Shown: piece by piece, positions 1,313 to 43,726 of the stretch
Layout: every line of letters starts with the position of its first letter
Numbering within the stretch: the stretch's first letter is position 1
NCBI GenBank assembly: GCA_031257675.1
Contig: JAIROG010000049.1
Span: 1-43,845 of the forward strand
From: Treponema sp.
Lineage (GTDB): Bacteria > Spirochaetota > Spirochaetia > Treponematales > Breznakiellaceae
Length of the DNA stretch: 43,845 nt
Direction: 5' to 3'
The notes under the pieces: model-generated
Databases searched by the model: none
The model's input: the letters and a program-made list of their open reading frames with translations, nothing else
Told to the model about the DNA's origin: nothing
Made by a program: the position numbers and the translations under genes

Positions 1313-1466
1313 TTATGGACCGTAAATCGCGCCAAGTATAGCGCCGCCGGAAGTAGCTCCAGTAACGCCTCCAACAACAGCTCCGATTATACCGCTAATG
1401 AGAGCGTTAAACCAGCCCTCGCCTTCAACGGTTTCCGCTTCGGCGTCAGAGAGTTGAGTTGCGGCG
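1313..1466 (-). pseudogene. headless glycine-zipper peptide gene (unit A')
   Basis: The frame reads LSDAEAETVEGEG and then WFNALISGIIGAVVGG and VTGATSGGAILGAIYGP before the stop. It is nearly identical to the leader end and first half of the core of the intact gene at 3522-3920. An in-frame TAA lies just upstream and there is no ATG, GTG or TTG, so the signal peptide and start are gone. The 5' part has been replaced by the tail of the 1446-1724 gene, whose stop codon TGA lies within the leader sequence. The remnant is followed by stem-loop 1 and a membrane protein gene. It shows that the leader region is a recombination joint. Confidence 0.7.
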
Positions 1467-1724
1467 TTTTAATTTATTCCGTAGTTTTAGAACAATACGG
1501 GTATATAGATACATAGTATATCCAGCCAAACAACCAGCCGACATGCCGAAAAAAACCATAAAAACTACGGCTCCTAGAGGCGTCAGGTTTATTATCATTT
1601 CTGATTGCGCCAGATCCTCCCAAAATAGTATGCTCAGTATAATTACAACAGGCAATCCCCACCCGAACATTCCAACGACAAGCCATTTCTCTAATGACCA
1701 TTGTTTCACTTCTTTTTTACCCAT
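1446..1724 (-). CDS. two-helix membrane protein, partner of peptide gene A
   Basis: Start ATG 1724 (a GTG one codon upstream is possible), with AAGGG a few bases before. The 92-residue product has two hydrophobic helices (WLVVGMFGWGLPVVIILSIL and a second around LGAVVFMVFFGMSAGCLAGY) and a strongly basic tail (LRNKLKRRN). No family was recognised. It lies 64 bp after peptide gene A with a 13-bp perfect stem-loop between them, and its last codons run into peptide remnant A'. Size, topology and position fit an immunity or accessory protein, which is inference. Confidence 0.55.
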   Translation of the reverse strand: MGKKEVKQWSLEKWLVVGMFGWGLPVVIILSILFWEDLAQSEMIINLTPLGAVVFMVFFGMSAGCLAGYTMYLYTRIVLKLRNKLKRRNSTL

Positions 1725-1740
1725 CACACCCTTACTTTGA

Positions 1741-1773
1741 AGAATAGTTTTCCTATTAAAGGAAAACTATTCT
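1741..1773 (-). promoter_or_regulatory. intercistronic stem-loop 2
   Basis: AGAATAGTTTTCC (1741-1753) pairs perfectly with GGAAAACTATTCT (1761-1773). It sits between the stop of peptide gene A (1788) and the start of its membrane partner (1724). There is no following U-run, so processing, mRNA protection or attenuation is likelier than plain termination. Confidence 0.6.
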
Positions 1774-1787
1774 ATAACAAATTTGCT

Positions 1788-2148
1788 CTAGAACGGAGAC
1801 AACGCCCCCACAATGCCTCCAAGGACAGCGCCTATTGCCGCGCCGACTTGCATGCCTCCATTTAGATTGCCAACCATGGCGCCGATTCCCAGTCCGACAT
1901 ATCCTCCAAAACCCGAGCCAACTAATGCGCCTCCAATAGCTCCAGACACTAACCCGCCTTCAACGGCTTCCGCTTCGGCCTCAGAGAGTTGGGGCGCGTC
2001 AACGTCCGCAAAGAGGGCGTCGGCCTCGAAGGATTCTCCGGTTTGGAAAGCGGGCGGCCGCGCCGGGCGCGCCAGAAACCGGAACCGCGAAGAGCGCGGC
2101 GGATGAAAAGACCGCCAGCGCGACAAAGAAAGCGATGATCTTTTTCAT
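1788..2148 (-). pseudogene. Sec-signal plus GG-leader glycine-zipper peptide gene A, frameshifted
   Basis: ATG 2148 has an excellent AGGAGG site. The first frame gives a Sec signal peptide (MKKIIAFFVALAVFSSAALF then AVPVSGAPG). One extra base in the GC-rich linker near 2058-2065, by comparison with the intact copy, shifts the frame. The other frame then reads FQTGESFEADALFADVDAPQ, LSEAEAEAVEGG and a 60-residue core with GxxxG repeats (LVSGAIGGALVGSGFGG, GYVGLGIGAMVG, GAAIGAVLGGIVGALSPF). The leader end with GG resembles class II microcin and bacteriocin leaders, and the core resembles colicin-V-like glycine-zipper peptides. The gene follows a broken beta-barrel gene and lacks its own promoter block. 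Confidence 0.7.
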
Positions 2149-2178
2149 AAATATCCTCCTAAAATAAGATGTATTCCG

Positions 2179-2726
2179 TTACAGATGCCATCTAGAACCC
2201 ATTCCAAACTTCTGTACCATAAACTGCTCGTCTCCTAAAAACTGAAACAACACCCCAGCTTCAAAGAAGCATACGCTCCTGCGATCCACGAGAAATTCAA
2301 AGCCGCATCCAAAACCAGCTGAATATGCCAAAGGCGTTTTCCAAATATCTTTTGAATCATTGGCGAACAATCCGACGCCGCCTTCCAAAAAACCATAAGA
2401 ACGCGCGAAGCCGGAATCATTCGTCTGTCCAAAAGTAAGTTTGTCCCATAGATTTAGGGTAGAATTATTGTTCTTTTTTCATCGGTTATTTTATAACCAT
2501 TCAACAAAATATAATTTCTAACATCCCATCTGTTGGCGTGGACTATTAAAAATCCAAATTCAAACCCCGCCCCCATATCCAGCGCCCCTCCGAAATTGAA
2601 ATGGGCTCCGAAATCGAACCGTTGAATTTCCGCTTTTTCCTGAGGGGCGTTTCCGCCGTCCTCCTCTGAAAACACGCAAAGATTAAAAGCCGGTAAAAGT
2701 AAAAAAAACAAGACAATTCTATTCAT
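2179..2726 (-). pseudogene. exported beta-barrel-like protein, frameshifted
   Basis: ATG 2726 has a good GGAGAG site. A signal peptide (MNRIVLFFLLLPAFNLCVFS) is followed by an alternating hydrophobic/Gly pattern (FDFGAHFNFGGALDMGAGFE, FGFLIVHANRW). The frame breaks after GYKITDE at an A6 run; with one more A it continues KKNNNSTLNLWDKLTFGQ, then SYGFLEGGVGLFAND, GCGFEFLVDRRSVCFFEAG and a C-terminal GSRWHL. The layout matches the second barrel-like gene at 5824-6629, which shares an ITYGF/SYGF segment. It was probably a ~180-residue outer-membrane or periplasmic protein of unknown function. Confidence 0.6.
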
Positions 2727-2749
2727 GTCTATTCTCTCCTGCTGTTAAG

Positions 2750-2781
2750 AACGCTCTTGCTCATAATTAGACAAGGGCGTT
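2750..2781 (-). promoter_or_regulatory. intercistronic stem-loop 3
   Basis: AACGCTCTTG (2750-2759) pairs with CAAGGGCGTT (2772-2781), with one G-U pair. It lies between peptide remnant B and the start of the 2726 gene, in the position occupied by a stem-loop in the other units. Confidence 0.5.
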
Positions 2782-2795
2782 GACTTAGATTTGAT

Positions 2796-2965
2796 TTAGA
2801 AGGGAAGTAAATTCATCCCTAATGTACTGCCTCCAGCCGCGCAAGTTATAACAAGAGCGGGGCCAAGAGGAGGCGCGCACAAACCAACAAGCGCCAAGCA
2901 ATGCTCCCCGCCACCCCTCGCCTTCAACGGGTTCCGCTTCGGCGTCAGAGAGTTGGGGCGCCTCA
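2796..2965 (-). pseudogene. headless, frame-scrambled peptide gene remnant (unit B)
   Basis: The frame shows EAPQLSDAEAEPVEGEGW, the leader end shared by the family, but no start codon, because the 5' part is joined to the stop of the 2972-3472 gene. The core is no longer in one frame. Another frame gives a Gly-rich end (AAGGSTLGMNLLPF) before the stop at 2796. It is a decayed member of the peptide family. Confidence 0.6.
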
Positions 2966-2971
2966 ATCCAA

Positions 2972-3472
2972 TCACCTGATCGGAATCCCCATTATGGAAA
3001 GATTGTAATTGTCAACCGCCCGCGCTATTTTATTATTCGCGGTCATTCCAGCCCAAAATGTAAGACCGAATCCCGCCACTTCTCCGAAATACGCAACCAG
3101 CATTATGGCGTCCCTGTTGGGATAATCTGAAAAAAGATAGGCGGAATGCGCTGCGGTCGATGCCATACACAGCGCGCCGAAAATATACGCCATCGTCCGC
3201 CATCCCTTCTCCTGCCTGAGCAGCTTTTTATTCTCAGGAACTGCGCCCAGTATTTGACGCAATTTATCCCTGAATATCAGCGGGGTTCCGTCAAGAAATT
3301 GATAATTGAAAGGGAAAAACATCATGCTGTTTTGGCGTACCACGATAGGGAGGCTCTCCGCGGCATCGAATGGAGGCGGCGGCTTTTCGCCGCCAAAAGC
3401 CCCTGAAACATCTTCCGCAAAAACACATGCCGGGAGTATAAAAAGAATAATTAGTAATTTAGCGCTATTCAT
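2972..3472 (-). CDS. exported or lipoprotein-like membrane protein, partner of peptide gene C
   Basis: ATG 3472 is chosen because GGCGG lies 7 bp upstream; an in-frame TTG at 3496 overlaps a stem-loop. The 166-residue protein has an N-terminal signal (MNSAKLLIILFILPACVFA) whose LPAC could be a lipobox. A hydrophilic stretch follows with a conserved-looking PFNYQFLDGTPLIF, then two hydrophobic helices at about residues 100-120 (YIFGALCMASTAAHSAYLF) and 126-150. No family was recognised. It is the gene directly after the only intact peptide gene, so an immunity or accessory role is the main hypothesis. Confidence 0.6.
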   Translation of the reverse strand: MNSAKLLIILFILPACVFAEDVSGAFGGEKPPPPFDAAESLPIVVRQNSMMFFPFNYQFLDGTPLIFRDKLRQILGAVPENKKLLRQEKGWRTMAYIFGALCMASTAAHSAYLFSDYPNRDAIMLVAYFGEVAGFGLTFWAGMTANNKIARAVDNYNLSIMGIPIR

Positions 3473-3487
3473 AACATCCGCCTTTTT

Positions 3488-3512
3488 AGGCCGCAACCGC
3501 TGGTTGCAGCCT
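3488..3512 (-). promoter_or_regulatory. intercistronic stem-loop 4
   Basis: AGGCCGCAACC (3488-3498) pairs with GGTTGCAGCCT (3502-3512) with one mismatch. It lies in the 49 bp between the stop of peptide gene C (3522) and the start of the next gene (3472). It overlaps no coding sequence if ATG 3472 is the start. Confidence 0.55.
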
Positions 3513-3521
3513 GTAAAGAGT

Positions 3522-3920
3522 TTACTTGAAAGTGACGCTTCCCTTTATGACAATATTATCTGTTGGGTATGCGGCGAAGGCGGATGAAGCGCCGCCTGCT
3601 ATAGCTCCGGCAATCCAACCAGGAATTGTCAAAACTCCCAATGATACGCCTCCCCCAAAAGCAGCTCCAGTAGCGCCTCCAACAACAGCTCCGATTATAC
3701 CGCTAATGAGAGCGTTAAACCAGCCCTCGCCTTCAATAGTCTCCGCTTCGGTGTCAGAGAGTTGGGGCGCATCGACATCCGCGAAGAGCGCGTCGAGATC
3801 GAAGGATTCTCCGGTCTGGGAAGCGGGGGCCGCGCCGGGCGCGCCAGAAACCGGAGCCGCGAAGAGCGCGGCGGAAGAAAAGACCGCCAGCGCCACAAAG
3901 AGAGCGATGATCTTGTTCAT
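3522..3920 (-). CDS. intact Sec-signal plus GG-leader glycine-zipper peptide (unit C)
   Basis: ATG 3920 has AGGAGG 7 bp upstream and codes for 132 residues. Residues 1-26 form a Sec signal peptide (MNKIIALFVALAVFSSAALF, then AAPVSG). A Pro/Ala linker leads to an acidic leader-like stretch (DLDALFADVDAPQLS, DTEAETIEGEG). The core of about 67 residues is hydrophobic and glycine-zippered (WFNALISGIIGAVVGGATG, AAFGGGVSLGVLTIPGW, IAGAIAGGASSAFAAYP) with a polar tail NIVIKGSVTFK. Class II microcin and bacteriocin precursors have such leaders and cores, but without a Sec signal. This hybrid suggests export by Sec and later trimming near Gly-Glu-Gly, possibly by a periplasmic C39 peptidase (inference). 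It is the only member whose whole frame is open, and it has its own promoter with TGACAC repeats. Confidence 0.75.
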   Translation of the reverse strand: MNKIIALFVALAVFSSAALFAAPVSGAPGAAPASQTGESFDLDALFADVDAPQLSDTEAETIEGEGWFNALISGIIGAVVGGATGAAFGGGVSLGVLTIPGWIAGAIAGGASSAFAAYPTDNIVIKGSVTFK

Positions 3921-3990
3921 AAAGATCCTCCTAAAATAAGATATATTCCGTTTCGCGCCCAAAAGAGCGCGTCCACAAAACTTGATCTAT

Positions 3991-4020
3991 ATCATATCCA
4001 ATTTAGAGCGCCTTTGTCAA
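3991..4020 (-). promoter_or_regulatory. promoter of peptide gene C
   Basis: On the minus strand TTGACA (4015-4020) and TATGAT (3991-3996) are 18 bp apart, a good housekeeping-type promoter. The leader of about 65 nt ends in the AGGAGG of peptide gene C. Confidence 0.65.
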
Positions 4021-4030
4021 TAAAATTTGA

Positions 4031-4068
4031 GTGTCAAAAAGTGTCATTGGGTGTCATTGAGAGTGTCA
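4031..4068 (-). promoter_or_regulatory. four TGACAC iterons upstream of the peptide promoter
   Basis: GTGTCA (TGACAC on the minus strand) occurs at 4031, 4041, 4051 and 4063, spaced 10, 10 and 12 bp, ending 10 bp upstream of the -35 box. Helically phased direct repeats in this position are typical of activator sites such as those of LytTR-type regulators in bacteriocin loci. The regulator itself is not in the window. Confidence 0.55.
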
Positions 4069-4197
4069 TAAAACCACTGTGAAGCGGGAAGGCGTTGAAA
4101 AAGAGGGTTTGCGCTTGCAATCGGGATGCCTCCGCTCCTCGTTCTCGCGCGAGAAAAACAAAGCGGCCAATGCGAATAAGACAAAAAGCCGTTTCAT
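4066..4197 (-). pseudogene. decayed lipoprotein gene copy 2
   Basis: ATG 4197 gives MKRLFVLFALAALFFSREN, aligned with MKRIFIVCALGALFFSCEN of the 385-747 gene. The lipobox Cys codon TGC has become CGC (Arg), and the frame drifts after about 26 residues to stop at 4066, where it runs into the TGACAC repeats. The ATG overlaps the TGA that ends a barrel-like remnant (WNMHRELAEFDKREQKKK). Confidence 0.65.
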
Positions 4198-4298
4198 TTC
4201 TTTTTTTGCTCCCGTTTGTCAAACTCCGCCAATTCTCGATGCATATTCCAGCGCCCGCGCCAGCTAATGCGGGCAAAGCGGCGCATGCTCCCGCCGGA

Positions 4299-4517
4299 TT
4301 ATTTTTCTCGCAAAAGATACGTAATGTTTCTAAACATAAATCCGCCGATCAAGGAGAATGTATAGGCCTTAATAATCATATTCGGTATAAGCGGAAAATT
4401 AGCGAAAGACCCGGTTGCCGCCGTCATAAATAAAATAAAAAAAGCTCCCATGCCTACAGCCCAATAGACAGCGCCATAAAGAACGGGGTCTTTGCCCGTT
4501 TCACCCCAATTTTTGTT
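4299..4517 (-). pseudogene. in-frame membrane-protein tail after a TAG stop
   Basis: Directly after the TAG of the 4518-5009 gene the same frame stays open for 72 codons. It reads WGETGKDPVLYGAVYW, then AVGMGAFFILFMTAATGSF, FPLIPNMIIKAYTFSLIGG and FMFRNITYLLREK. The two hydrophobic helices are protein-like. Either a nonsense mutation split a ~236-residue membrane protein, or this is a separate small gene starting at an internal ATG. Confidence 0.5.
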
Positions 4518-5009
4518 CTATATCTCTTTATTTGCGCGGAAGAAACGCCTCAATTTGACAAGCCGCGCCTGCCATGTTGAATATTCCCATTTAAGATATC
4601 TCTTCATGTCTTTTTTAACGGAAAATTTATTTAAAACATCCATGTTTTGCATAACAGATTGCAGTAAACAAGAGAATCCTATCAGTATATAGGCATCTTT
4701 TATATCAAAAATACAGAGCGCGTATATCTCTATATAATCATAACCATACTCATAAATAAGCGTGTTAAGCGCCGAACAAACAAATCCCGCGATATAAAAG
4801 AAAGCGGACATTACGAGAAGCGTCCGTTTCCGCTCAAAAAAATAAAGAATCCGCGCCACATAATAACCAACCGATATTCCCAAGAAACAAACAAGCAAGT
4901 GAATGGATATGTCTAATTCTCCTTTCGACAGGTAAACTCCTTTATAATACTGCGGCATAGACTTTATAGACTTTGGAGATATTTCGAGCCAGCCTTCTAT
5001 AATTGACAC
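4518..5009 (-). CDS. multi-spanning membrane protein of the peptide array
   Basis: A 163-residue product with three hydrophobic segments: HLLVCFLGISVGYYVARILYF, LLVMSAFFYIAGFVCSALNT and a third around IKDAYILIGFSCLLQSV. A basic C-terminus follows (LVKLRRFFRANKEI). Its start overlaps the end of the upstream membrane gene by 13 bp, so the two are co-translated. The TAG stop at 4518 is followed in frame by another 72 open codons with more helices, so the protein may be truncated. No family was recognised; an immunity or accessory role for the upstream peptide is inferred from position. Confidence 0.55.
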   Translation of the reverse strand: MSIIEGWLEISPKSIKSMPQYYKGVYLSKGELDISIHLLVCFLGISVGYYVARILYFFERKRTLLVMSAFFYIAGFVCSALNTLIYEYGYDYIEIYALCIFDIKDAYILIGFSCLLQSVMQNMDVLNKFSVKKDMKRYLKWEYSTWQARLVKLRRFFRANKEI

Positions 5010-5344
5010 TCTATTGTCTCATGGCGCTGTACCACTAAAAATTGTATTGTTTGATCTATGGCAATAAGAATCGCCGTCATCACTATAAATTTAAGCCAGG
5101 GGACGTGTTTTTTATTGACAACGCATAAATTTATAAGCGCTCCAATACAGAAGAGCGCGGCGGCAGGCAGAAAGTTGCGCCAAAACCACGGACTCTGAAG
5201 ATACAGCGCCAGTCTTTGCCAAAAAGCGCCGCCCCAAAAGTAATATATTTCTTTCCCCAAAAAGAGAAGCAAAAAAAATAACAGCCACGGGACGCTAAAA
5301 CAGATAAAAATTTGCATGTATTTTATATGGATTCTACTGCTCAC
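4997..5344 (-). CDS. membrane protein, partner of peptide gene D
   Basis: GTG 5344 is chosen because a perfect GAGGAGG lies 4 bp upstream, placed just after stem-loop 5. The 115-residue product has three helices: IFICFSVPWLLFFLLLFLG, FLPAAALFCIGALINLCVV and WLKFIVMTAILIAIDQTI. It ends in HETIECQL and overlaps the next membrane gene. No family was recognised. It follows the broken peptide gene D, as the other membrane genes follow their peptide genes. Confidence 0.55.
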   Translation of the reverse strand: MSSRIHIKYMQIFICFSVPWLLFFLLLFLGKEIYYFWGGAFWQRLALYLQSPWFWRNFLPAAALFCIGALINLCVVNKKHVPWLKFIVMTAILIAIDQTIQFLVVQRHETIECQL

Positions 5345-5354
5345 ACAACCTCCT

Positions 5355-5383
5355 CGCTTTACCCTCAAATTGAGGGTAAAGCG
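5355..5383 (-). promoter_or_regulatory. intercistronic stem-loop 5
   Basis: CGCTTTACCCTC (5355-5366) pairs perfectly with GAGGGTAAAGCG (5372-5383) around a 5-nt loop. It lies between peptide gene D and its membrane partner and abuts that gene's Shine-Dalgarno sequence, so it could affect ribosome access. Confidence 0.65.
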
Positions 5384-5394
5384 GCAAGCAAATG

Positions 5395-5564
5395 CTATGG
5401 ACTATCTGGTATTAAGCTTATACCCAATACAGCAACCCCCGTTCCTATACCCGATCCAAGCAAAATTGCTCCAAGTATGACCCCTCGCCTTCAACGGGTT
5501 CCGCTTCGGCATCAGAGAGTTGGGGCGCGTCAACGTCCGCAAAGAGCGCGATAATCTTTTTCAT
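5395..5564 (-). pseudogene. peptide gene D, internally deleted and frameshifted
   Basis: ATG 5564 has AGGAGG upstream. The frame reads MKKIIALF directly followed by ADVDAPQLSDAEAEPVEGEG. The rest of the signal peptide and the linker are missing, consistent with recombination between the GCGCTCTTTG stretches found in both the signal and the leader. At the leader/core junction a G4 run, likely G5 before, throws the frame off. The next frame reads GVILGAILLGSGIGTGVAVL and ends ISLIPDSP at 5395. Without the slip this would be a classical-looking double-glycine precursor with no Sec signal. Confidence 0.65.
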
Positions 5565-5705: not shown

Positions 5706-5827
5706 ACTGTGAAGCGGGAAAGCGTTGAAAAAGAAGGGTTGCGCTTGCAAGCGGAATGCCATCGCTCCTCGTTCTCGCGCGAGAAAAACAACGCGGCTCA
5801 TGCGCATGACATAAAAAATTGTTTTAT
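5706..5827 (-). pseudogene. decayed lipoprotein gene copy 3
   Basis: The stretch AALFFSRENEERWHS is recognisable, but the start codon has become ATA, an in-frame TGA interrupts the signal peptide, and the lipobox Cys is Arg as in copy 2. It is a dead copy of the 385-747 gene. Confidence 0.6.
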
Positions 5828-6629
5828 GTTCTTTTTTGCTTCGGTTTGCCCAACCCCGCCCATTCTCGATACATATTCCACCCGAATCCTATATATGGTT
5901 TTATACCAATACAAGAGTTGAATGTCCAGCGAGACGAATCGTTTGACGGGGACTCAACGAGCATCCAATCTATACATGTCCATGCTATATGTACGCCCGC
6001 CGCTATATGAAAAGCGTCCGTTATATTCAGCTTCACATGGACGTTTCCGCCGATTCCTAAATCTACAGACAACAGGGAATATTTTTCACCGCCGCTCTTA
6101 CGGTACTCCGAACCTTCTGACAAAAAGTTAAATCCAACGCCGTATTCAAACGTTACGGATCGGTTTGGTTCACATTTAAATCCGGCGCCTGCCGTCAATT
6201 CCAGCATCGCCCTTTGATAATCAAAGACAGCGTCACGCAATGTTTTTGACGAAGGCGACAATCCGCTGAAATAAAAAAAAAGACCCGGCTGTTTGTTGTC
6301 CCAAAATCCGTATGTAATCAGATTAATCCCCAAGGCTCTTGAGGATCTTCCGGCTGGTTTCGCCGTATTTTCATTTAAATCAAAAACACCCCATACGAGA
6401 ACCCTAGAAAAGCGTCATTTTCTTCAAATGAAAAGGCGTGTGAAACAATTACAAAAAGAAATATAAATAGATGCTTTCCCAAAACGCGCGGATCGGCAGT
6501 TTTTGGGAAAGCGTCATTAGATTTAAAAGAAAGAGCGGGCTTTTGACCGCTCTTTCGAAAGCCTTTCCCAAAACCAACTCGAACGCAGCCAGCGTTTTGG
6601 GAAAGGCTCAATATACTAAAGTCTTTCAT
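5824..6629 (-). pseudogene. exported beta-barrel-like protein, interrupted by a palindromic element and a frameshift
   Basis: ATG 6629 (MKDFSI) begins a signal peptide that resumes after a ~135-bp palindromic insertion as LFIFLFVIVSHAFSFEEN. The frame then breaks at a T5 run after FLGFSYGV; with six T it would continue FFDLNENTAKPAG and GINLITYGFWDNKQPG. The later part has alternating strands (LELTAGAGFKCEP, VTFEYGVGFNFLS, LLSVDLGIGGNVHVKL) and ends IKPYIGFGWNMYREWAG. This looks like an 8-strand outer-membrane barrel or OmpA/OprF-like porin fold, by pattern only. It shares the SYGF/ITYGF region with the 2179-2726 relic. Confidence 0.55.
6473..6607. mobile_element. MITE-like palindromic insertion
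   Basis: Terminal inverted repeats GCTTTCCCAAAACGC (6473-6487) and a matching GCGTTTTGGGAAAGGC ending at 6607 enclose three hairpins: 6473-6487 with 6500-6512, 6529-6538 with 6547-6556, and 6561-6574 with 6594-6607. It interrupts the signal-peptide codons of a barrel-like gene. No transposase is coded. A target duplication could not be defined with confidence. Confidence 0.6.
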
Positions 6630-10757: not shown

Positions 10758-11801
10758 TTACCGTCCGCTCATAAGCGCCGCCCACTCGTTTATGTCCGAC
10801 TGCGCAACCGGCGCCGGATGATCGAGCGGCTTGTCGCTCTTGGGAGCTATTCTGAACGAAGGCGGCAACGGAATGTCTATAACCGGATACATCCAGTTTG
10901 TAAGCGGGATGACTTCCTGAAACGAAGGCGAAAGCATGAAATCCAGAAAGCGCTTGGCGTTGTCCTTATTTTTCGCATTGCCCAACAGCCCCGCGACCTC
11001 AACCTGAATCACATGCCCGTCTGTGAAAATGGCGGCTTTGTACCGTTCAGTTCCCTCGTATTCAAGGTGATACCCCGGGCTGGTCGTGTAGGAAAGCGCA
11101 AGCGGCGCCTCGCCTGCGGTAAAAAGCCCGTAACCAGTGTCCCAGCCTTCCGCAATGGTCAAAATGGACGGAGAAAGCCTTTTCCAATACTCCTTCCAGC
11201 CGTCCCCGTACGCCGTCTTTGTCCACGTCAGAAATCCAAGACCGGGCGAAGATGTGCGCGGATCCATGAGGATGAGTTTTTTCGCATATACAGGATCAGC
11301 CAAATCCTCAAGACTTTGGGGAGGGTTGGGGATTTTTTCACTGTCGTACACAATGGCGAAATAGCTGTAATCAAAGGGAATGAGGCGGAAGGTTTTGTCA
11401 ATAACAATTTCATTGGGAACGCCGCCGGCTCCCGCAGGTTTATACGCTTCCAAAAAACCGGAATTCAACGCCCTTTCCGCGTAGTTTTGATCAATGCCCA
11501 GTATAATATCGGCGTCCGCAGATTTCCCCTCCAGAAGCAACCGCGACAACATGGAACCCGCATCGCCGTGGCTCACCCATTTGATTGCGACGCCCGTTTG
11601 CTCAAGAAAGCGTTTGCCTATCTCCGCGCCTGGACCCCATTCCGAGTTGAATGAATCGTACGTCCAAATGACCACTTCTTTGGCGTCCGCTTCCGCATCC
11701 GTGTTTTTCTTTGCGCAGCCGAATGCAAGAACCGAAAAGACAACCGCCAATAAAAGAAGCGGCCTTGAAAGAACAGGGCTTGTTTTCGCTGTTTTCAGCA
11801 T
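10758..11801 (-). CDS. thiB: thiamine-binding lipoprotein of an ABC importer
   Basis: ATG 11801 is chosen because GAGGAG lies 6 bp upstream; the longer frame from 11819 would code through that site. The 347-residue product has a lipoprotein signal ending LAFGC, then VVIWTYDSFNSEWGPGAEIG, GDAGSMLSRLLLEGKSADAD, IILGIDQN and PFDYSYFAIVYDSEKI. These segments are typical of TbpA/ThiB. It would bind thiamine or its phosphates outside the membrane and pass them to ThiP/ThiQ. Neither thiP nor thiQ is adjacent: downstream there are 230 bp without a gene and then an unrelated operon. A TPP riboswitch precedes it, which supports the substrate call strongly. Confidence 0.88.
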   Translation of the reverse strand: MLKTAKTSPVLSRPLLLLAVVFSVLAFGCAKKNTDAEADAKEVVIWTYDSFNSEWGPGAEIGKRFLEQTGVAIKWVSHGDAGSMLSRLLLEGKSADADIILGIDQNYAERALNSGFLEAYKPAGAGGVPNEIVIDKTFRLIPFDYSYFAIVYDSEKIPNPPQSLEDLADPVYAKKLILMDPRTSSPGLGFLTWTKTAYGDGWKEYWKRLSPSILTIAEGWDTGYGLFTAGEAPLALSYTTSPGYHLEYEGTERYKAAIFTDGHVIQVEVAGLLGNAKNKDNAKRFLDFMLSPSFQEVIPLTNWMYPVIDIPLPPSFRIAPKSDKPLDHPAPVAQSDINEWAALMSGR

Positions 11802-11892
11802 ACATATCTCCTCTTCCATGCCTCACGCATGGTTTTAACGTTTTATCGGAGTAAGTATGATCATACGAAAAACTTGTAAGAAAAGCTTGTTT

Positions 11893-11985
11893 TTCCCTGC
11901 GCCGGTATTATCCGTATCAGGTTCAAAGGGTATAATCTCAGGCATCCCGTTGGTCATGCGTAACAACCAACCGGTCAACCACCCC
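11893..11985 (-). promoter_or_regulatory. TPP riboswitch controlling thiB
   Basis: On the minus strand the conserved cores CTGAGATTATACCC, GAACCTGAT and GGATAATACCGGCGCAGGGA appear in order after a GGGGTGGTT stem strand, the hallmark of the THI-box aptamer. Between it and thiB a stem CCATGC/GCATGG (11816-11832) abuts the GAGGAG ribosome site. Control could therefore be at translation, by hiding or exposing that site (inference). Confidence 0.92.
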
Positions 11986-11999
11986 GATAAAATTTTACT

Positions 12000-12030: not shown

Positions 12031-12102
12031 AGCGGGAAACGGGAGTCGGACCCGCGACATCGACCTTGGCAAGGTCGCGCTCTACCACTGAGCTATTCCC
12101 GC
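12031..12102 (-). tRNA. tRNA-Gly (GCC)
   Basis: The 72-nt cloverleaf has acceptor GCGGGAA/TTCCCGC, D arm AGCTCAGTGGTAGAGC, anticodon stem CGACC/GGTCG with loop TTGCCAA (anticodon GCC) and T loop GGGTCCGACTCCC. CCA is not encoded. Confidence 0.95.
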
Positions 12103-12195
12103 AAGCATAGCATATCTATATCATAGCAATTTTTTTCTAATGTGTCAAGCGGTTTTAAGCGAAAATACACACATTCGCACAACCCGCTTGCAAAA

Positions 12196-12268
12196 TGAGC
12201 CGCGAAGGGATCGAACCTTCGACCCACAGATTAAGAGTCTGTTGCTCTACCAGCTGAGCTAGCGGCCC
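12196..12268 (-). tRNA. tRNA-Lys (CTT)
   Basis: The 73-nt cloverleaf has acceptor GGGCCGC/GCGGCTC with one G-U pair, D arm AGCTCAGCTGGTAGAGC, anticodon stem ACAGA/TCTGT with loop CTCTTAA (anticodon CTT) and T arm AAGGTTCGATCCCTT. CCA is not encoded. Confidence 0.95.
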
Positions 12269-41456: not shown

Positions 41457-41843
41457 TTGGGGTTTAACTCTCCGCCCTTTAGGAATGAAAAGATAGATAA
41501 AACGGTAAAAGAAACTTGTGAAGGGATAAGTAAAAGGTATGAAATAGAATTTCTTGAAATAGGGGCGGAAGGAGATCATGTACATTTTCTTGTCCAATCG
41601 ACGCCCGCGTATAGTCCGGCAAAAACAGTGACGGCGATAAAGGGCATTGTATCAAGGAAAGTGTTTGAGGAACATCCGGAAGTAAAGAAGCGGTTATGGG
41701 GAGGGGAATTCTGGAGTGATGGGCGCTTTGTAAGCGCGGCGGGCAAGTATGGGAATGAGGAAGTAACATCAAATTATGTGAGATCACAAGATACGGAAAG
41801 AGAATATAAACAAATTCAGAAAAAGCGATTGGAATTATTCTAA
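41457..41843 (+). pseudogene. tnpA: IS200/IS605 TnpA (Y1 HUH transposase), 5'-truncated
   Basis: The frame lacks the usual first ~25 residues and picks up at FRNEKIDKTVKETCEGISKR. The HUH motif (AEGDHVHFLVQSTP), a TAIKGIVSRKVF segment, LWGGEFWSDGRF and the catalytic Tyr (AAGKYGNEEVTSNYVRSQ) are present. No start with a good ribosome site is visible, so the enzyme is probably not made whole. Confidence 0.8.
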
Positions 41844-41900
41844 TCTTTCAAACAACAATCTTAAGACTCCCCGCCCTGAAGGGCGGGGTGGTTCATTAAC
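41844..41900 (+). mobile_element. right end of the IS200/IS605 element
   Basis: After the tnpA stop, CCCCGCCC (41869-41876) pairs with GGGCGGGG (41881-41888) around TGAA, the typical right-end hairpin. GGTTCATTAA follows, where the broken ABC gene begins. The left end was not found, consistent with the 5' truncation of tnpA. Confidence 0.65.
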
Positions 41901-42621
41901 GTGAGCTTTCGATATGGTAGCCGATCTCCGGTATATAAAGATTTATCGTTTCATATAGAGAGCGGGCAATGCGCTGGTTTTGTGGGGGGCTTCCGGTTGC
42001 GGAAAATCAACTATGGCAAAGCTGATGCTCAAGTTTTATGAGGCGGAGCAAGGGACGATCCGTATTGACGATCACGATATAAAGGATATTGACACGGCGA
42101 CACTCCGCTCGCGTATCGGTTACGTTCCGCAGGAGGTTTTCATGTTTTCAGGGAGCATAGCGGAAAACATATCGCTTCATAAGCCGTCCGCCGAATTAGA
42201 CGAAATAATAGAGGCGGCGAAAAAAGCGGGGGCGGATGAGTTTATAAGCGTATTGCCGGAACGGTATAACACAAAACTTGGGGAGCGGGGGTTTGCGCTA
42301 TCCGGGGGAGAACGGCGGAGGCTGGCTTTAGCGCGGGTTTTGCTGGGAAAACCGGATATTCTGATTTTAGACGAGGCGACCAGCAACCTTGATTCCATAA
42401 GCGAGAGGTTTATTTATCAAGCCTTTGAAGAACTGCGGGGGAAAATGACAGCTATTATGATAGCGCGCTGGCTGACTACGGTACGGAAATGCGATATTAT
42501 TTTTGTTATGGATAAAGGAAAATATTGTGGATCGGGAAGCCATAACGAGTTAATCGCCAGAGGCGCAAAACAATGTGGGACAGCCTGCTATGATACATTT
42601 TTCCAATATGACCGAATTTGA
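41901..42621 (+). pseudogene. bacteriocin-type ABC exporter, ATPase domain remnant
   Basis: Only the ATPase domain remains. VSFRYGSRSPVYKDLSFHIE is followed at a G6 run by a +1 shift, then ASGCGKSTMAKLMLKFYEAE (Walker A), IGYVPQEVFMFSGSIAENIS (Q loop), ALSGGERRRLALARVLLGKP (signature) and DILILDEATSNLDS (Walker B). The H-loop, normally IAHRLTTV, is IARWLTTV, so the switch His is lost. The last residues run out of the expected frame. The spacing and motifs fit exporters of the HlyB/peptidase-containing type that work with HlyD partners. The membrane and any peptidase domain were removed at the IS junction. Confidence 0.7.
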
Positions 42622-43726
42622 GCGGGGATATCAATTCTTTATGCTTCGCCTATCCCGGGCAATCAGCTTGTTTATTATCACGGTCGCGGGTATCGTCATC
42701 GCCGCGCTTATATGGGCGTCAATCGCAAAAATGGACGATGTAATAAAAGCGGACGCTCTTCTGCGTCCGCTGGAAACGAGCTCGTCCGTCAAAGCGCTTT
42801 CTGGAGGAGAAGCGCTAAAAAAAAAATTATACGCAAGATAGTTTTGTTATGGAAGGAGAACTGCTTCTGCAATTAGATGCGTCGGCGGACGTTCTTGAAT
42901 TGGAAAACTCAAAGAAACTTATGGATCGGATAGAAAACAGTATTATAATCTATAACGCGCTTCTTGAAACGATCAAGTCCGGGAAAAATAGAGCAAACTC
43001 TCAAAATGAAGAGGCGCATATCCGCTCTCAATCATACCTTGTTGAATATCAACGTTGGATAAATCAAATAGAAGGACTAGAATTGAGATTAGAACGGGAG
43101 AAATCCCTGCCGGAAAGCGCGATCATAAAACAAGAGCTTGAAACCAAAGAACAAGAGGTTAAACAAACAAAACTGCAATTCTCATTATGGAAAATAATCA
43201 AACAATAGATAATCTAAGAAATTTAACACAAAATAAAGAAACCCTAGAACGCCATATCTCCGATCTGGAGCGGACCATAAGAAACGCCACGATTTACGCG
43301 CCCATATCCGGTAAAATAAAAGAAGTCAGGCAATTCAATGTCAGGGATTACCTTTTACCCGGCGAAGAAATCCTTACAATTATTCCCACCGGCACAAATT
43401 TAAAAACGGAATTGTACGTATCGCCCGCTTATATAGCGCAAGTGAGAATTGGAGATAAAGTAACGCTTCGCTTTCCCGGGCTTCCACCCTCAAGATTCGG
43501 AAAACTGGATGCGGAGATAAGCCTGATACCGGCGGACTACGCCTCATACAGCGGATCGGAGCCAATTTTTATTGTAGAAGCGAGCATAAAAGAACCGTGG
43601 CTTACGTCAGCGCAAGGGGAAAGAATCTATCTACGCTCCGGCATAGGAGCGCAAGGGCGTATAATCATTAAACAAGACACAGTAATAGGAATGATACTTA
43701 AAAAGCTTGATTTTATATATGACTAG
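42608..43726 (+). pseudogene. HlyD-family membrane fusion protein, two frameshifts
   Basis: ATG 42608 (MTEFERGYQFFMLRLSRAIS) gives a cytoplasmic start and one helix (LFIITVAGIVIAALIWASI), then DDVIKADALLRPLETSSSVK. At an A10 run (42817-42826) the frame slips; the next frame gives MEGELLLQLDASADVLELEN and a coiled coil. A second slip near 43185 leads to NLTQNKETLERHISDLERTI, APISGKIKEVRQFNVRDYLL and IPTGTNLKTELYVSPAYIAQ. Repaired, this is a full adaptor linking an inner-membrane exporter to an outer-membrane channel. It overlaps the ABC gene end. Confidence 0.75.

Follow-up and report, generated by a model that had tools for sequence, protein, structure and literature searches.

A 43,845-nt stretch of DNA (the window), which makes up all of contig C79 in a Treponema sp. 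genome (2.37 Mb, 83% complete, 133 contigs), carries near one end an array of small peptide genes, the copy of a peptide-export cassette that has decayed and recombined. The reading that we favour, at a probability of about 0.68, is that such cassettes combine Sec export, periplasmic trimming by a C39 peptidase and exit through a FapF-like pore, with bacteriocin-like cores and protecting partner proteins. The Sec machinery would move a small precursor across the inner membrane by means of a type I signal peptide, after which a stand-alone C39 in the periplasm would read a second leader of the double-glycine (GG) type (L-12, E-8, V/I-4, G-2) and cut after G-X. The cut would release a hydrophobic Gly/Ala-zipper core, which would leave through a FapF-like 12-stranded outer-membrane barrel encoded beside the peptidase, while the membrane proteins encoded beside the peptides (small transmembrane, CPBP/Abi-type and signal peptidase II [SPase II]-like) would most likely protect the producer.

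Intact cassettes and their two-part leader

Sequence comparison and modelling showed the gene content of the cassettes, their homology, the leader register, the association of signal peptide with C39 and the barrel fold. A C39 search of 200 genomes of the family gave 10 positive genomes, and the general design of the loci was one or more peptides with a signal peptide and a GG leader, one or more membrane partners, a C39 peptidase and an outer-membrane barrel. Ten such clusters lie in related Treponema genomes: the same cassette was present at loci in G067, G003, G042 and G461, and second-clade cassettes were found in G070 and G015 (two loci each), G099 and G028, with the peptide gene adjacent or divergent and often followed by other membrane proteins. 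The window genome itself has a paralogous cluster on contig C57, composed of a peptide, a broken second peptide, a YNLYIMG-type partner, a lipoprotein, a complete C39 and a barrel; a 92-nt gap and the absence of its N-terminus suggest that this barrel is truncated. At 11 of 11 complete cassette C39 loci (C57 included) the barrel gene adjoined the C39 gene, and a gene for a signal-peptide peptide was adjacent or nearby at all of them, L027 keeping the signal peptide only. A more distant C39, in G040, has ABC/CPBP-like surroundings and no such peptide.

Aligned signal-peptide precursors from both clades and from G213, G164 and G365 shared L/I-12, E/Q/D-8, V/I-4 (once A) and G-2, with position -1 relaxed to E, A, T, K, D, R or G. 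This is the register of classical GG leaders, and it was kept in 19 precursors of the signal-peptide type, distant families included; in a further precursor, from G206, LGEKELNAIEGE followed by A stands behind a signal peptide just upstream of C39. A leader model built from the first clade only found second-clade peptides (best E values 3e-7 and 1e-4, others weaker), and a second-clade model found first-clade peptides (1e-5 to 0.06); since each clade's models find the other clade's peptides, the leader homology is not a selection artefact. This cross-clade test and a signal-peptide-blind scan replaced a first test of the leader–C39 association that was partly circular, its model having been built from C39 neighbours. 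In the scan, which ignored signal peptides and from whose count the frameshifted window copy was left out, a signal peptide preceded the leader in 14 of 14 cases near a stand-alone C39 and in 0 of 8 near a C39-ABC transporter (p 3e-6), all eight of the latter having canonical GG. Four further pattern hits near stand-alone C39s were judged to be chance or unrelated, and counting them as failures gave p 3e-4.

The original prediction had proposed a two-stage leader, with Sec export first and trimming afterwards, and this is supported by the stand-alone C39 (PF03412) in the same cassettes, the exact GG register and the restriction of signal peptides to the surroundings of stand-alone C39s. It had also expected co-occurrence with C39-ABC, HlyD and TolC, which was not borne out: none was seen in the retrieved surroundings of the cassette C39s, where a FapF-like barrel was present instead. 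C39-ABC/HlyD/TolC was likewise rejected as the exporter of the array, the window remnant being frameshifted and 36 kb off and none lying near any cassette.

A C39 acting in the cytosol could in principle remove a signal-like segment together with the leader, leaving a distant ABC transporter to export the core, and both the weak N-terminal hydrophobic segments of the C39s and the C39-ABC genes that some of these genomes have elsewhere would fit. However, the loss of signal peptides coincides exactly with an adjacent C39-ABC, those on the peptides are of textbook type, the neighbouring gene encodes an outer-membrane barrel and not an ABC transporter, and G067, G003 and G099 have no further C39 match able to be a C39-ABC, so that we regard this as very unlikely. 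The peptides' signal peptides end in A-P or A-E without Cys, and thus do not have the lipobox of Gly-zipper outer-membrane lipoproteins. Together with the GG register and the linkage to C39, the missing lipobox makes it extremely unlikely that these are ordinary glycine-zipper envelope proteins whose shared leader end is an uncut domain linker, despite a weak, composition-driven match to the glycine-zipper model PRK11280 (E 0.001, below cut-off).

GG-leader peptides without a signal peptide were also seen. Contigs C113 and C66 of the window genome carry canonical ones beside broken C39-ABC-type remnants, and G015 has two classical ones beside a C39-ABC/HlyD pair, one of them with a clear Gly-zipper core:

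L144, 2080–2445, 3790–4107 and 6265–6585: peptides of the window genome
L145, 5153–5404: peptide of the window genome
L146, 8028–8249 and 9697–9918: the two peptides of G015

At L095 (5262–5879), a 205-aa protein encoded upstream of a stand-alone C39 bears a Sec signal and a LGEKELNAIEGE leader, and its end has an HG...GC motif that by eye is reminiscent of L,D-transpeptidases.

Peptidase, barrel and peptide cores

The C57 C39 scored above the Pfam cut-off for PF03412, and the active-site residues Q27, C33, H120 and D136 were invariant. All ten aligned C39s matched the NCBIfam models for FapD (NF058616, best E 7e-14) and FilB (NF050078, E to 1e-13), the own-genome C39 scoring 41 bits on NF058616 against a cut-off of 330 and also far below the FilB cut-off. 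A model of the G042 barrel had 12 strands (pLDDT 77, pTM 0.70), and its best 20 matches among 350,542 PDB chains were FapF and the related 4rl8 (Foldseek; E down to 9e-14, TM about 0.7), suggesting a FapF-type fold; other barrels gave TM 0.3–0.5 against the G042 model.

Pfam and NCBIfam searches with the peptides gave no match above cut-off. Most cores are 32–86 aa long, with abundant Gly, Ala and hydrophobic residues and GxxxG motifs; Gly+Ala makes up 0.26–0.46 of most of them and N+Q at most 0.09, and because of these features they look membrane-active and not amyloid. This bears on a Fap- or Fil-like surface fibre, in which the peptides would be structural subunits assembled by the C39 and the barrel, as the matches of the C39s to FapD and FilB and of the barrel to FapF might suggest. 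We consider such a fibre quite unlikely: the cores, besides having no more than 9% N+Q, are without amyloid repeats and vary between units, the mature barrel as modelled has no room for the FapF coiled-coil domain, and no FapA/B/C/E-like genes were seen in the cassettes.

Different peptides have different membrane proteins after them. Pfam searches with the partner proteins mostly gave no match, apart from SPase II and CPBP, the latter a protein beside one cassette (PF02517, 1e-22). Proteins of the CPBP type are known to occur in bacteriocin immunity. The SPase II-like protein and the lipoprotein may be a maturation pair or have an immunity role; a fold search with the lipoprotein model, a beta-sandwich, gave no match better than E 0.004. 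The SPase II-like protein recurred in cassettes, often beside the lipoprotein (L023 5419–6378; L024 9654–10490 and 5679–6539; L150 462–1316, the last assigned by position and look only).

Given that protection of the producer is the most likely role of the adjacent membrane proteins, a bacteriocin-like nature is the most likely one for the cores. We infer the cut, the cargo of the pore, immunity and antibacterial action, and the evidence is good for the export route and circumstantial for antibacterial action. The same route might instead export autolysis or signalling peptides that act on the producer's own population and are not weapons. The gonococcal nap peptides, which have a C39 (NapP) and a FapF-like protein (NapF), did not kill competitors and promoted autolysis (PMC11798529), and GG-leader proteins of T. 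denticola caused no growth inhibition that was seen (PMC11879956). Nevertheless, differing cores with differing partners in a recombining array are more typical of toxin/immunity diversification, and one partner is of the CPBP type, so we hold this alternative to be unlikely.

Several observations weigh against the bacteriocin-export reading as a whole. The C39s begin with a weakly hydrophobic stretch (KD10 2.1–2.7 in the family, compared with 3.0–3.6 for most peptides) and two distant C39s appear to have no hydrophobic N-terminus, for which reason their periplasmic place is not certain and the C39 N-terminus is the softest link of the proposed route. Three family genomes have peptides and no detected C39, two of them being 86–94% complete, and in the window genome the array C39 and the C57 barrel are both truncated. 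The barrel model was built from six sequences, and no barrel matched FapF, any Pfam family or the PDB by sequence search. The partners are putative immunity proteins, none of them proven. Finally, some cargo is not of the Gly-zipper type (G015, G070a) and distant cargo is large, and therefore the route is broader than bacteriocins.

Known systems and a possible wider route in Spirochaetia

Of the systems described so far, the gonococcal nap island (2025) comes closest, and it is the only one for which the two-step route had been sketched. In N. gonorrhoeae the island comprises NapABC, NapP, NapF and NapI, with proposed periplasmic cleavage and a LagC-like immunity gene, while the inner-membrane step was left open and a holin-like NapH was suggested (PMC11798529). 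Compared by gene content and description, both systems have GG peptides, a stand-alone C39 and a FapF-like pore in one cluster with a putative immunity gene, whereas the spirochaete cassettes differ in the Sec signal ahead of the leader, the multi-unit arrays, the relaxed position -1 and the lipoprotein and SPase II-like genes.

Pseudomonas Fap likewise has a stand-alone C39 and a 12-stranded FapF barrel, the likeness of the barrel being one of fold and not of sequence. FapD, the model C39 peptidase of the periplasm, carries a Sec signal peptide; two papers, of 2017 and 2018, left its substrate undetermined (PMC5557850, PMC6173800), and fapD/fapF homologues lying together had been described from five further phyla (PMC6173800). 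Unlike Fap, the cassettes have no amyloid subunits or coiled coil, and their substrates bear GG-type leaders, which are absent from Fap proteins. FilB (NF050078) is also a stand-alone C39 of similar sequence, but in a pilus context.

Class II microcins and other bacteriocins of C39-ABC (PCAT) systems share the GG register, Gly-rich or zipper-like hydrophobic cores and neighbouring membrane proteins. In contrast to the short N-terminal GG leader of class II microcins, a Sec signal precedes the leader in all intact peptides here, and no C39-ABC, HlyD or TolC was seen in the cassettes, C39-ABC loci lying elsewhere. The bacteriocin-type signal domain proteins of T. denticola (PMC11879956) resemble the cassettes in coming from Treponema, in their tandem units with lipoprotein genes and in their GG motif; they differ in having GG at positions 17–18, which leaves no room for a Sec signal, in that two of the three are large, and in their ABC exporter TepA/B (PMC11879956). 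To the nap and Fap descriptions the spirochaete cassettes add the Sec signal before the leader, arrays of several units, a -1 position that is relaxed and the difference from C39-ABC loci. In the cassettes a FapD-like peptidase and a FapF-like pore occur with precursors that bear a Sec signal as well as a GG-type leader of textbook form, so that small genes now allow direct tests of two questions, the FapD substrate and the nap inner-membrane step. The cassettes further provide a search rule, a signal peptide followed by L-x3-E-x3-V/I-x-G, for bacteriocin-like peptides that would be missed when a GG leader is expected at the very N-terminus.

Beyond the family, a stand-alone C39 followed by an exported, probably barrel protein was found more widely in Spirochaetia, with barrel homology at the sequence level in at least G213 (2e-24). 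One family of cargo, marked by the motif HCDIIA.N.A...G(L/I) and by a leucine-rich-repeat-like protein next to it, occurred in G028, G164 and G365:

L148, 7592–8182: HCDIIA cargo
L099, 6230–6820: HCDIIA cargo
L104, 5045–5764: HCDIIA cargo

In G028 the cargo has an N-terminal GG leader and no signal peptide, and lies beside a C39-ABC gene split by a transposase-like open reading frame (ORF); in G164 and G365 it has a signal peptide plus a GG-type leader and lies beside a stand-alone C39 that is followed by an exported protein, whose assignment as a barrel by sequence was weak in G365 (0.005) and was not made in G164. The cargo was similar across the two routes (BLAST E about 6e-11), and the simplest reading is that one kind of leader is served by both machineries, between which cargo can switch. 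We give an even chance to a broader proposal, namely a general second Spirochaetia route for double-glycine peptides, parallel to C39-ABC and made up of Sec, a periplasmic C39 with relaxed -1 and a FapF-type pore, between which and C39-ABC cargo would swap by gain or loss of a signal peptide. If true, the cargo would span bacteriocin-like peptides and larger proteins.

A further recurrent Spirochaetia cluster (L033 6256–10750, L105, L106) consists of an ABC transporter, a C39 with a signal peptide and an exported barrel-like protein, with LolA-like or CPBP-like neighbours. One Spirochaetia family (L100–L103) has a stand-alone C39 together with an exported ORF amid housekeeping-type genes, with no obvious peptide.

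The array in the window and its surroundings

The leader end that the original prediction saw in five units was recovered by a repeat search of the window as five 54-nt copies on the minus strand (5480–5533, 3722–3775, 2913–2966, 1949–2002 and 1414–1467), 83–96% identical to the reference copy, and a protein search of the own genome found the same five sites and one paralogue on C57. Every array gene is on the minus strand, in the following order:

5478–5564, minus: unit A, peptide remnant with MKKIIAL fused to LFADVDAPQLSDAEAEPVEGEG, the signal peptide mostly deleted
4518–5368, minus: divergent SPase II-like membrane protein after unit A (PF01252, 7e-8), split by a frameshift near 5010
4066–4197, minus: lipoprotein gene fragment (repeat D6), the start of the cassette lipoprotein
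3991–4020, minus: promoter-like TTGACA-18-TATGAT upstream of unit B, 11 of 12 consensus positions
3522–3920, minus: unit B, the sole intact peptide (132 aa), signal peptide at residues 1–21
2972–3496, minus: unit B partner, exported or membrane protein ending AVDNYNLSIMGIPIR
2890–2967, minus: unit C, leader and core fragment without signal peptide
2160–2726, minus: broken gene after unit C for an exported, probably beta-barrel protein, with ORFs in different frames
1788–2148, minus: unit D, a frameshift separating the signal peptide from a canonical VEGG leader and Gly-zipper core
1446–1727, minus: unit D partner, 93 aa, two transmembrane-like segments
1313–1467, minus: unit E, leader and core fragment, 74% identical to unit B
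744–1280, minus: 178-aa protein after unit E, three transmembrane-like segments
385–747, minus: cassette lipoprotein, lipobox ..FFSC, predicted beta-sandwich
about 55–375, minus: C39 peptidase with a hydrophobic segment at the N-terminus; up to codon 92 it shares 88% identity with the paralogue on C57

In unit B the GG-type leader runs through G64-E65 and the Gly/Ala-rich core starts at G66, whereas comparison with intact relatives showed a truncation or a frameshift in each of the other four peptide genes; the Gly-zipper core of unit A, as read from the sequence, continues in a different frame. Accordingly, signal peptide, leader and core are uninterrupted in unit B and not in D (frameshifted), A (signal peptide mostly lost) or the fragments C and E, and although an ORF follows each unit, as had been described, the membrane or exported gene is split by a frameshift after A and broken after C. 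Set against their intact relatives, the window units thus form an array that is real but largely decayed. It extends past position 1313, through the transmembrane protein and the lipoprotein, to the C39 at the contig end, which is broken past codon 92. Relatives of the SPase II-like gene are intact in G067 and G003 (G003 match 1e-15), and the window copy apparently has one catalytic Asp fewer (D to N, by eye). The family of the unit B partner was also found beside peptides in C57, G067 and G042. The number of promoter-like sites in the region was not above the shuffled expectation.

The nearest named relatives of the window genome are Treponema metagenome-assembled genomes, and one series of these relatives is named Pcl387, a name that comes from a lower-termite gut set (PMC12887300). 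Directly upstream of the array, a probably exported, beta-barrel-like ORF (5824–6333) overlaps a lipoprotein fragment; it gave no tblastn match from the cassette barrel. At the far end of the window (41457–43726), an IS200/IS605-like TnpA is accompanied by what is left of an ABC ATPase of type I secretion and by an HlyD adaptor with a frameshift; this ABC/HlyD remnant (41.9–43.7 kb) is a decayed exporter. An Rfam scan of the window gave nothing beyond tRNAs and a TPP riboswitch; the riboswitch and two tRNA genes are at 11877–11996 and 12031–12268 on the minus strand, the riboswitch upstream of a gene for a thiamine-type binding protein (10758–11819).

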